64,000 bases of DNA, taken from positions 1 to 64,000 of the forward strand of contig CAKMJS010000076.1 of the NCBI GenBank assembly GCA_927405585.1, in the 5' to 3' direction. Shown here one piece after another: positions 17,902 to 29,045 of this stretch. The first letter of the stretch is position 1, and each line of letters opens with the position of its first letter. A program made the position numbers and the translations under genes. This DNA is from an uncultured Desulfosporosinus sp. Lineage in GTDB: Bacteria > Bacillota > Desulfitobacteriia > Desulfitobacteriales > Desulfitobacteriaceae. Below the pieces are notes generated by a model. The model was not told where the DNA came from. It did not search any database and was given only the letters and a program-made list of their open reading frames with translations.

Positions 17902-18549
17902 GTGAGCTATAAGATGTACGCAAAACCGAAACCATCGCGTATCTATTCCGAACAGTGGAGTCCATCGGACGAACAAATTAACTGCGTATTTCCCATTGCA
18001 GAGTTAACAGCGGAACTAGAGAAGAATCCTGCCCTAGAAGTGTTACGGGATGACGAAGTAAGACTAAAGTATCCAAGTCTATATAATATCTCGGTACAAG
18101 CGAGAGCGCATAACCGGGGTCTTGTTGAACTATTGCAAGAATATTATGAGGCGAATAGTGAAAGTCCCGAGTTTGCGAACTTAGTGGGAATACAATTGCC
18201 TCAGATCATGTGGGTTGATACATTAGGCTTAGAAGAGAAGATCATTACTCTACTTATTTCGAAGCTTAATAAGGACGAGGTTTTCATCAACGATATTGTA
18301 TTAGTGAAGAATGAAGACTTCGATCCATTGAGCGATGCTCTCCTGGCGACTGTACTCAATAATTTGCGTGAGTTTGCCAAGGTGCAAGGGGCTAAATATC
18401 TGTCGGGTTATGCATCCAATAAAAATACCTTGAAGCTCTTTAAACGGTTGGGATTTAAAGAAGATCATCGCGAGAACATGGGGAATGACTATCTATGGTC
18501 GATATGTAGATCAACCGGTGAACAATTTCCGTTTTATGATGAATTGTGA
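17902..18549 (+). CDS. GNAT-like acetyltransferase domain protein
   Basis: The protein has 215 residues. The last 60 resemble the end of a GNAT fold (GAKYLSGYASNKNTLKLFKRLGF), where acetyl-CoA-dependent enzymes close their active site. The first half is unfamiliar. The start is not settled: GTG 17902 sits too close to AAAGG, while ATG 17914 is 13 bases from it. It is six bases from the probable selenoprotein gene and co-directional with mqnB and mqnD, so the four may form one operon. Confidence 0.65.
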   Translation: MSYKMYAKPKPSRIYSEQWSPSDEQINCVFPIAELTAELEKNPALEVLRDDEVRLKYPSLYNISVQARAHNRGLVELLQEYYEANSESPEFANLVGIQLPQIMWVDTLGLEEKIITLLISKLNKDEVFINDIVLVKNEDFDPLSDALLATVLNNLREFAKVQGAKYLSGYASNKNTLKLFKRLGFKEDHRENMGNDYLWSICRSTGEQFPFYDEL

Positions 18550-18554
18550 TTCCA

Positions 18555-19178
18555 ATGACTAAAAAAGTAACGGTTTTCTCAGATTTCTTATGACCCTTTT
18601 GCATCATTGGGAAAGTCCCACTTGACCAGTTGGCCAAGGATAAAAATTTAACCATCGAATGGAAGGCCTTTGAACTTAGGCCGGAGGGTATCGAACTCCC
18701 CATGAAATCTCCGGAACAGCTTGCCAAGGCGAAAGCGGGTATTGAAGCATTTGGACGAAAGTACGGACTTCTCATGGTCTTTAATAATCAGAGCAAACAC
18801 TCTAGATTGGCTTTGCAAGGCTCAAAATTTGCAGAAAACTATGGGCTGGTCAACGAATATCACGATGCGGTTTTTGAGGCGCAATTTCAAAAGCAACAAA
18901 ACATTAACGACGTGAACGTATTAACTGAAATAGCTATGCAGCTTGGGCTTGATCAACAAGAATTCCTTGAGGCACTCGAAACTAGACAATACGAACAAGC
19001 TGTTTTACAGGATGTAGAAGAAGCTTATCATTTAGGAATCCGGAGTGTGCCCTGTTTTATCGTAGATGATCGCGCAGTTTACGGCGCCCAGAGCTATGAA
19101 GCCCTCGAAAAATTCCTTGAAGGGAAAGAGAATGGCTTTCGTCTCAAGCTGAAGGGGGATTCTCATGGTAATGACTGA
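18555..19178 (+). CDS. DsbA/FrnE-family thioredoxin-fold oxidoreductase, probable selenoprotein (UxxC)
   Basis: From ATG 18555 the frame reads MTKKVTVFSDFL, then TGA at 18591-18593, then PFCIIGK. In this family that position is Cys in CPFC, so TGA replaces the nucleophilic cysteine and would give U-P-F-C. The remaining 194 codons are open and keep all family features, including cis-proline in SVPCFIVDDRAVYGAQ. The total is 207 residues, normal for the family. Two candidate bacterial SECIS hairpins follow: TGGG-AAAGT-CCCA (18608-18620), and CTTGACC-AGTT-GGCCAAG (18621-18638), whose loop begins 34 bases after the UGA. No signal peptide is present, so it acts in the cytoplasm. The alternative is a nonsense mutation with restart at TTG 18630. 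Confidence 0.8.
18608..18638 (+). promoter_or_regulatory. Candidate bacterial SECIS hairpins
   Basis: The second hairpin has arms CTTG-A-CC and GG-C-CAAG with one A.C mismatch and loop AGTT. A G at the second loop base and a UGA-to-loop distance of 34 fit the published bacterial SECIS pattern. The first hairpin, with loop AAAGT, fits less well. Confidence 0.5.
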
Positions 19179-19848
19179 CGCTAAGGATAAATCATTAATA
19201 GGACAAGGGCGGGTCCTAGTGGTAACGGCTGTCACAGTCGAGAAGGATGCGGTGTTACGTGGTCTGCACAACGATTCAAGGTTTGATGTCTTGGTGGCGG
19301 GTGTCGGCTCGGTCGTTGCCGCAGTGAACACGACTAAGGCGTTGGCAACAGCTGAGTATAGTTTAGTGGTTTCTGCTGGTATCGGAGGTGGTTTTCTTGG
19401 TAGGGCTGAAGTAGGTTCACTCGTGGTGGCAAGCGAGATGATTATTGCTGACTTGGGAGTAGAGACACAAGAGGGCTTCTGCAGTTTGGAGGAGTTGGGT
19501 TTCGGATTTACCCATGTCAAGACAAATGCAAGTCTGGTCGCTCATTTGTCTAGTGCGCTTCAAGCAGTGAAGCTGCCCGTTAGTATTGGTCCTGTGCTCA
19601 CCGTATCAACGATTACGGGTACAGCAGCGCGTGCCGAGGAACTTGCCAAAAGGGTACCAGGCGCTACAGCCGAAGCTATGGAAGGATATGGCGTTGGATT
19701 GGCAGCTATTGATCGTGGTTTACCGGTTCTAGAGATCCGTGCAATCTCTAATATGGTTGGTCCTCGTGATCGGTCAGCCTGGCGAATCAATGAAGCGTTA
19801 GACGTTCTTGAAGCGGCTAGTACGGTATTGACGGAGGTATTACTGTGA
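19165..19848 (+). CDS. mqnB: Futalosine hydrolase
   Basis: The protein has 227 residues in the nucleoside phosphorylase-like (MTAN) fold. Visible motifs are VTAVTVEKDAV at the start, AGVGSVVAAVNT near 50, SAGIGGGF near 72, and AMEGYGVGLAA near 172 with the catalytic Glu. It removes the base from futalosine in the alternative menaquinone pathway. GGGGG precedes the ATG. It overlaps the selenoprotein gene by 14 bases and mqnD by 4. Confidence 0.9.
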   Translation: MVMTDAKDKSLIGQGRVLVVTAVTVEKDAVLRGLHNDSRFDVLVAGVGSVVAAVNTTKALATAEYSLVVSAGIGGGFLGRAEVGSLVVASEMIIADLGVETQEGFCSLEELGFGFTHVKTNASLVAHLSSALQAVKLPVSIGPVLTVSTITGTAARAEELAKRVPGATAEAMEGYGVGLAAIDRGLPVLEIRAISNMVGPRDRSAWRINEALDVLEAASTVLTEVLL

Positions 19849-20684
19849 AAATTGCATTCTCTCCTTGTCCCAATGATACGTTGGTTTTTCATGCCTGGGT
19901 ACACGGCCTAATTCCAGGTGCACCTCAGCTTGACGTAACCTACGCAGATATTGACATCACGAATACTTTAGCTGCCGGCGCTCAAGGACCGGATGTTGTC
20001 AAGATCTCGTACGCAGCGCTACCCTGGGCTTTGTCTGAATATGCCCTGCTGCCCTGTGGTGGTGCGTTGGGTAAAGGCTGTGGGCCACTGGTATTGACCT
20101 CAAATAGAGGTAGTATCCATAGTCTAGCAAGTCTATCTAGCAAACGGGTGGCGGTTCCAAGTGAACGATCTACCGCTTATTTGCTTTTTCGGTTATGGGC
20201 TACCCAACATGTGCCAGGGGGAATAGGCGAGATTGTCGTGCTGCCGTTTCATGAGATCATGCCAGCGGTACGTGACGGTGTAGTGGATGCTGGGCTTGTG
20301 ATTCACGAGGCGCGTTTCACATATCCTTCCTTTGGGCTGACTCTCTTGGCTGACTTAGGAACCTGGTGGGAGAAAGATACAAATTTACCGATCCCTTTGG
20401 GAGCGATTATCGCTCGAAGGTCACTGGATTTACCAGCCATTACTGGCTGGATTCAGGCCTCGGTCAAATATGCTTGGGCACACCCGGAGGCGTCGAAAGA
20501 CTATGTGCTTCAACACAGTCAAGAATTGTCCCAAGAAGTAACCCAAGCTCACATTAAGCTCTATGTCAATGAGTTTACCCAGGATATTGGCCTGACAGGG
20601 CATAGGGCAGTTGAAGCTTTGCTAAGTCGAGCTTCGCAAGAAGGACTGGTACCCAAAGTGGATTTGGCGACACTCTATTTGTAG
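19845..20684 (+). CDS. mqnD: 1,4-dihydroxy-6-naphthoate synthase
   Basis: The protein has 279 residues in a periplasmic-binding-protein-like fold. FSPCPNDTLVFHAW at the start and the later GKGCGPLVL are typical of MqnD, which converts cyclic dehypoxanthinyl futalosine to 1,4-dihydroxy-6-naphthoate. A GTG start with GGAGG upstream overlaps the mqnB stop. mqnA and mqnC are not in this window. Confidence 0.93.
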   Translation: MKIAFSPCPNDTLVFHAWVHGLIPGAPQLDVTYADIDITNTLAAGAQGPDVVKISYAALPWALSEYALLPCGGALGKGCGPLVLTSNRGSIHSLASLSSKRVAVPSERSTAYLLFRLWATQHVPGGIGEIVVLPFHEIMPAVRDGVVDAGLVIHEARFTYPSFGLTLLADLGTWWEKDTNLPIPLGAIIARRSLDLPAITGWIQASVKYAWAHPEASKDYVLQHSQELSQEVTQAHIKLYVNEFTQDIGLTGHRAVEALLSRASQEGLVPKVDLATLYL

Positions 20685-28874: not shown

Positions 28875-28898
28875 GAGATCTAGATAAAAGAATATAGT

Positions 28899-28968
28899 GT
28901 TCATATAGTAGCAGAGATAGGGTCTGCAAGTTTCTACCGGACTGCCGTAAATGGTCCGACTATGAGCG
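28899..28968 (+). ncRNA. Guanine-family purine riboswitch aptamer (variant)
   Basis: P1 is TTCATA/TATGAG, P2 GCAGA/TCTGC with loop GATAGGG, J2/3 AAGTTTCTACC, P3 CGGAC/GTCCG with loop core CCGTAAAT, and J3/1 AC before TATG. The C at 28960 corresponds to C74 of the Bacillus xpt aptamer, so guanine-type rather than adenine. Compared with xpt from memory, J1/2 has G for A at position 24 and the P2 loop has G for U at position 36. It controls a molybdoenzyme operon. Confidence 0.9.
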
Positions 28969-28973
28969 AAAGT

Positions 28974-29045
28974 GTACCTTGGACAACTAGTCCAATTGGT
29001 ACAGATCCAAAGACTTTTAGAGGAAGTCTTTACTTTGTTTTTGGA
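28974..29045 (+). promoter_or_regulatory. Riboswitch expression platform
   Basis: One hairpin pairs GTACC-TT-GGAC with GTCC-AATT-GGTAC (28974-29002). A second pairs AAAGACTT with AAGTCTTT (29009-29031) and is followed by ACTTTGTTTTT, a terminator-like tail. The outer ATCCAAA/TTTGGAT pairing could compete with it. Confidence 0.6.

Follow-up and report, generated by a model that had tools for sequence, protein, structure and literature searches.

A predicted selenocysteine-containing DsbA/FrnE-like protein of Desulfosporosinus with a conserved tandem-hairpin signal downstream of its in-frame UGA

The DNA analyzed here (the window) is a stretch of 64,000 nucleotides from the genome of an uncultured Desulfosporosinus sp., in which a reading frame for a DsbA-like protein is interrupted by TGA at the position of the redox-active cysteine. 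The question raised by this locus is whether the codon is a true stop, a product of error or gene decay, or a codon for selenocysteine (Sec). The original prediction, which was made from the sequence alone, favored the last of these readings and proposed a cytoplasmic UxxC thiol oxidoreductase. The gene, denoted dsbA-U, includes the following features.

18555-19178, + strand: dsbA-U, predicted DsbA/FrnE-like selenoprotein gene, 207 codons with UGA in frame at codon 13
18591-18593, + strand: UGA codon, predicted Sec13, the U of UPFC; TGA in 27/27 Desulfosporosinus and 9/9 Bacilli sequences, TGC in two Alicyclobacillus
18600-18602, + strand: codon of the resolving Cys16, an invariant Cys in the family alignments A1 and A2
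19050-19055, + strand: cis-Pro166 and the adjacent Cys167 (alignment A1)

The protein and the selenocysteine machinery of its host

As originally described, the frame starts with ATG at 18555, reads MTKKVTVFSDFL-TGA-PFC at the N-terminus and continues through 194 open codons to a TGA stop at 19176-19178. A Pfam search with the TGA taken as a residue identifies a complete DSBA domain (PF01323, E = 4e-36), in which codon 13 falls where DsbA active sites of the CPFC type have their nucleophile. The flanking motifs, SDFL before and PFC after the UGA, are invariant or nearly so in alignment A1, and cis-Pro166 is invariant across the family alignments; residue 167 is Cys in most members and Tyr in one Desulfosporosinus clade (alignment A1). 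The intact resolving cysteine and cis-Pro noticed in the single sequence are thus features of the whole family.

The AlphaFold2 model, built for the window protein and its relatives, has a mean pLDDT of 92.5, and its strand 1 begins at residue 4, leaving no signal peptide. Among solved structures, FrnE of Deinococcus (5cnw, E = 5e-15) and SCO1869 come closest in sequence. A Foldseek search started with the model places FrnE at ranks 1-5 (probability 1.00), followed by SCO1869 and HCCA isomerase and, lower, by kappa-class GST and the cytosolic disulfide reductase DsbM. Judging from the model, dsbA-U is best read as encoding a cytoplasmic selenol/thiol-disulfide oxidoreductase with the FrnE/DsbA fold. 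An NCBIfam profile search yields no model that fits the protein above its cut-off; NF041057, “Rcas_1661 (seleno)lipoprotein”, matches the C-terminal half only, with 51.6 bits against a curated cut-off of 190 bits.

The host genome (4.48 Mb, 98.6% complete, a draft of 181 contigs, with the window on contig C76) encodes all four components of the Sec machinery for which a search had been suggested. The tRNA-Sec (66 bits against a cut-off of 47) and SelB (above its curated cut-off) are found on contig C83, and SelA (540 bits) and SelD (411 bits), both above their curated cut-offs, on contig C25. SelD carries an in-frame TGA of its own, and the formate dehydrogenase FdhA of this genome contains one in-frame TGA. 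SelA and tRNA-Sec also score above their cut-offs in all seven named relatives tested, including the two Alicyclobacillus.

Conservation of the UGA codon and of the RNA that follows it

The gene is present in 27 of the 30 Desulfosporosinus genomes searched (the host included), each time with TGA at codon 13, and the protein identity across the genus is 61-76%; the three genomes that lack it (G021, G028 and G031) are each 2.8-3.4 Mb in size. Other genera of the same class give no comparable match. In a scan with each species represented by one genome, the TGA form appears, with 54-58% identity, in Terrihalobacillus insolitus, Paenisporosarcina sp. TG20, Aquibacillus saliphilus, Sediminibacillus halophilus and a Bacillota MAG, and a Cys form, with TGC, in the two Alicyclobacillus, where the letters of the hairpins described below are gone. 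Searching 399 Bacilli-class genomes by pattern adds four more TGA carriers. Altogether, UGA is kept in 36 of 36 aligned sequences from two bacterial classes, the nine from Bacilli being those found with the SECIS of the family, and the Bacilli carriers have the same hairpin letters. The 36 UGA codons align with the TGC of Alicyclobacillus and with the catalytic Cys of FrnE. In plasmid records, the relatives among the matches listed are at most 33% identical and are DsbA family proteins or unannotated.

The original prediction had named decay after codon 13 in related strains as evidence against itself; none is seen among the relatives of this group within the genus, and the homologs have either UGA or Cys at this codon. 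The pairwise dN/dS after the UGA has a median of about 0.11, a rough figure given that many pairs are near synonymous saturation, and by this measure the downstream codons are under purifying selection. In one of the four Bacilli sequences from the pattern search (L145), the SECIS and UGA are intact and the frame stops 26 codons later, owing to a frameshift or an assembly error. A tree of the Cys and Sec forms requires three label changes, with weak deep support and long branches, so that it does not settle the direction of change.

The RNA signal comprises the following elements.

18609-18638, + strand: SECIS region, codons 19-28, frozen at synonymous sites (entropy and third-position differences)
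18609-18619, + strand: hairpin 1, GGGA-AAG-UCCC, predicted lower part of the SECIS; GGG/CCC in 36/36
18621-18638, + strand: hairpin 2, CUUG-A-CC AGUU GG-C-CAAG; loop at 18628-18631 with an invariant G at 18629

The normalized synonymous codon entropy is 0.12 in codons 19-28 versus 0.71 in the 99 other codons, a value as low as the former was reached in none of 100,000 resamplings, and codon 19 is precisely where the contiguous stretch of lowest synonymous entropy in the gene begins. Within codons 19-28, 9.7% of third-position comparisons show a difference, versus 51% downstream. Such a pattern reflects a constraint that acts on the RNA, not on the protein. Given that the UGA is kept in every aligned sequence and that the synonymous freeze is confined to the 10 hairpin-forming codons, the UGA is not a chance occurrence.

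The two hairpins noticed originally, one of them with a G at the second loop position, are recovered by RNAalifold at positions 19-29 and 31-48 (U of UGA = 1), and it is the second that bears this G: the loop G at position 39 is found in 36/36 sequences and the next letter is U in 35. Across the 36 sequences, 89% of the cells of hairpin 2 are paired; the A.C position is A-U in seven sequences, and in L145 both letters of one pair have changed in compensation, from U-A to C-G. Covariation is limited to this single change because the letters of the SECIS hardly vary. The current bacterial SECIS model calls for an apical loop of 3-9 nt with G among its first two positions, an upper stem of 4-16 bp, a distance of 16-37 nt from the UGA to the loop, and a minimum free energy no higher than -7.5 kcal/mol (PMC13188914). 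The geometry of hairpin 2 agrees with this model (loop AGUU with G39, a stem of 6 pairs including one A.C or A-U, spacing of 34 nt). The free energy of hairpin 2 alone ranges from -3.8 to -12.5 kcal/mol, depending on the species and flanks, with low stability in the window sequence (-3.8 to -5.4); that of the tandem ranges from -7.9 to -10.0, and that of the whole region from -10.8 to -18.7. On its own, energy does not decide the matter: 18591-18650, the stretch proposed for folding, does no better than shuffled sequences (z = -0.68). RNAalifold gives the tandem hairpins. The single-sequence optimum of RNAfold often departs from the tandem hairpins, and the long irregular stem that it gives for the window sequence is disfavored, being not kept across the family.

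The loop purine of hairpin 1 is G or A. Since it is A in eight members, where the loop-G rule fails, hairpin 1 was rejected as the SelB site, and hairpin 2 is the better candidate; it is likely to be the SelB-binding apical hairpin, whereas hairpin 1 may serve to position it. In the same genome, the SelD mRNA (L017) has GGUCC-UGC-GGACC and then GCGCAA-GUU-UUGCGC after its UGA (pairing read by eye), a seemingly tandem layout that resembles dsbA-U, whereas FdhA (L148) has an E. coli-like GGUCU loop, so that two SECIS styles appear to coexist.

The alternative that the UGA is a true stop, with translation restarting downstream, e.g., at the TTG at 18630 to give a 182-residue protein without UxxC, draws on the fact that mechanical ORF calling returns exactly this ORF; with no NCBIfam model of selenoprotein meaning above its cut-off, automatic annotation may report the short ORF as well. 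However, according to the model, such a product would lack the first strand and the greater part of the first helix of the thioredoxin fold, and a restart does not account for the near-invariance of SDFL and PFC around the codon. Nor does it account for the fact that the UGA is never UAA or UAG in relatives and is UGC only where the hairpins are lost, or for the position of the ATG, 3-6 nt past the upstream acetyltransferase-like gene in most relatives. A restart is accordingly very improbable. An assembly error or a decaying gene in the host genome might be suspected in a draft of so many contigs, but an identical UGA stands in nine Bacilli sequences and in 26 further genomes of the genus, each sequenced independently, and the dN/dS behind it is low. 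This explanation is therefore close to negligible, and a pseudogene or sequencing error is ruled out by the conservation of the UGA. The reading of codon 13 as selenocysteine is therefore well supported, with a probability that we put at roughly 0.93. The computed basis consists of the conservation of the UGA, the complete Sec machinery, purifying selection, the frozen tandem-hairpin SECIS and the fold, from which we infer Sec insertion itself.

Gene neighborhood and predicted function

The genes next to dsbA-U in the window are the following.

17914-18549, + strand: GNAT-fold acetyltransferase-like gene, ending 5 nt before dsbA-U
19165-19848, + strand: mqnB, futalosine hydrolase (NF006087, E=1.7e-91), an ORF that overlaps dsbA-U by 14 nt
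19845-20684, + strand: mqnD, menaquinone biosynthesis protein of the MqnA/MqnD type (PF02621, E=9e-64)

The GNAT-like gene lies immediately upstream of dsbA-U in all 21 loci where this side is visible, 3-92 nt away. A Pfam search with its product finds no match, and its model (pLDDT 89.8) matches GNAT structures only, and these weakly. Downstream, 16 loci encode a small sirohaem-reductase-like protein that has NIR_SIR and NIR_SIR_ferr domains and whose gene is followed by mqnB and mqnD in many relatives. This gene is missing beside dsbA-U in the window, which results in the overlap with mqnB, and in Bacilli. Co-transcription with mqnB and mqnD, as originally proposed, is thus plausible in the host genome but not conserved, the NIR_SIR gene lying between them in most relatives. 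A menaquinone-linked function was rejected on these grounds and because the Bacilli carriers have different neighbors; as far as gene order tells, the menaquinone link appears to be a trait of this genome rather than of the family. Elsewhere in the window (28881-28982), there is a purine riboswitch aptamer (82 bits).

In Sediminibacillus halophilus, the gene is located directly behind selB and selA (selB-selA-dsbA-U, L075:1233-5573), and Aquibacillus has the order selA-dsbA-U (L072:3565-5576), i.e., in these Bacillaceae the predicted selenoprotein gene lies inside the operon of the Sec machinery. The Cys form of Alicyclobacillus is followed by an ORF with a WCGPC motif, by this motif a probable thioredoxin gene, in agreement with a redox role. 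In Terrihalobacillus, a Cys-type DsbA/FrnE paralog with CPFC (L070:4344-4982), which ends with CGPDGCF, is encoded directly upstream of the Sec gene.

In the proposed mechanism, SelB with Sec-tRNA(Sec) would bind the apical hairpin, which has the AGUU loop with its invariant G and lies some 30-45 nt past the UGA, during translation of the 5' end of the mRNA, and the UGA would be decoded as Sec. Sec13 would then attack a disulfide and Cys16 would resolve the intermediate. FrnE of Deinococcus is described as reducing or isomerizing disulfides in the cytoplasm (PMC8945050), and a CPFC protein of Listeria, Lmo1059, reduces GSSG and, weakly, insulin (PMC10715225). Assuming the same direction by analogy with these enzymes, dsbA-U probably reduces or isomerizes cytoplasmic disulfides. 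The Sec members of alignments A1 and A2 have no C-terminal Cys pair or CX4C, a motif present in many but not all FrnE (PMC8945050), so another reductant would be needed; a thioredoxin-type or low-molecular-weight thiol system might re-reduce the protein. Redox direction, substrate and electron donor are all inferred.

Sec might instead be inserted into a protein of another kind, namely a transferase or isomerase that depends on the selenol (in the manner of kappa-class GST or HCCA isomerase), a protein that binds metals or metalloids, or a reductase specialized for the neighboring sirohaem enzyme. The closeness in fold of HCCA isomerase and GST kappa in the Foldseek search, the NIR_SIR-domain gene that adjoins in most relatives, and the link of FrnE to cadmium tolerance (PMC8945050) speak for such roles. 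Yet the NIR_SIR gene is not beside dsbA-U in the window or in Bacilli, and Sec13 and Cys16 are both retained, as in a two-residue redox motif. To our knowledge, CxxC is not required in HCCA isomerases and GST kappa, which also counts against this group of functions. We consider them unlikely, if worth keeping in mind, and prefer the thiol-disulfide oxidoreductase.

Relationship to known selenoproteins and to FrnE

The original prediction assumed that the family could be poorly known, which does not hold if undescribed is meant: UxxC DsbA-like selenoproteins have appeared in published lists since about 2006, when Anaeromyxobacter, Desulfovibrio desulfuricans and Desulfotomaculum reducens were named (PMC1794560). 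An ocean survey reported DsbA 1 and DsbA 2 selenoproteins (PMC2398784), 45 DsbA-like sequences in 41 organisms were listed in 2016 (PMC5029168), and Table 1 of a 2026 review includes a DsbA-like selenoprotein “form 1” (PF01323, UxxC; representative NIP15863.1) (PMC13188914). dsbA-U resembles “form 1” in its PF01323 domain, with Sec first in UxxC and a bacterial SECIS just downstream, but differs from it as listed, without clade detail, in the strictly conserved two-hairpin SECIS and in spanning Desulfosporosinus and Bacilli. The dsbA-U group is, then, a distinct branch of a known kind of selenoprotein. The branch and its unusually strict RNA signal appear to be so far undescribed; by titles, abstracts and occurrence counts, the papers found to name both Desulfosporosinus and selenoproteins do not point to this protein.

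A phylum search identifies a second Sec-DsbA clade with the motif SDYxUPFCYIGK, PF01323 and UGA at the same position (L157, L155, L156, L162, L163, L165-L167), whose identity with the window protein is about 27-28% (from the comparison of L049 with L157). For this clade a single hairpin, (C)GGCAAGGUCCUUGCC(G), is predicted as the SECIS; it lies closer to the UGA and contrasts with the tandem of dsbA-U. Three Desulfosporosinus carry a gene of this clade with SDYIUPFCYIGK (L157:1284-1922 in G015, L155 at 3154 in G026, L156 at 2044 in G027) in which the UGA is followed by a perfect hairpin of 7 bp, CGGCAAG-GUC-CUUGCCG; this gene is absent from the genome of the window. Although G015 is 8% contaminated, two MAGs have the gene as well, which favors a genuine paralog. 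The other members (SDYxUPFC in L162, L163, L165, L166 and L167) and L168, with UPWC, come from further Bacillota families, have single hairpins, and are probably the long-known DsbA-like selenoproteins. Another DsbA relative (L161, G524), with a UGA near 1280, an in-frame TAG and a disturbed C-terminus, is possibly a decaying Sec gene or affected by sequencing errors.

We tentatively propose, with rather less than even confidence, that dsbA-U defines an undescribed Sec-DsbA orthologous group of Desulfosporosinus and some Bacilli, with a distinct tandem-hairpin SECIS kept nearly letter for letter across two classes, which in at least some Bacilli belongs to the selB-selA operon and may be a main cause of the retention of the Sec machinery. 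At the level of the gene, dsbA-U is a solid new selenoprotein candidate that routine annotation will probably shorten or overlook. The conservation of the SECIS suffices for a mutational test of which hairpin is read by SelB, and comparing the Sec form of Desulfosporosinus or Sediminibacillus with the Cys form of Alicyclobacillus, a natural pair, could reveal what Sec adds to a cytoplasmic DsbA.

Among solved structures, the best match in both sequence and fold is FrnE of Deinococcus radiodurans (cd03024-type; DR_0659; 5cnw, 5cp1), which likewise has a cytoplasmic DsbA fold. Its active site is CPWC, with Cys where dsbA-U has the predicted Sec, and its C-terminal CX4C, a motif proposed to regenerate the active site, has no counterpart in dsbA-U. 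Lmo1059, likened to dsbA-U by description rather than by sequence, is a predicted cytoplasmic member of the DsbA family and a Cys enzyme, with CPFC in place of UPFC.
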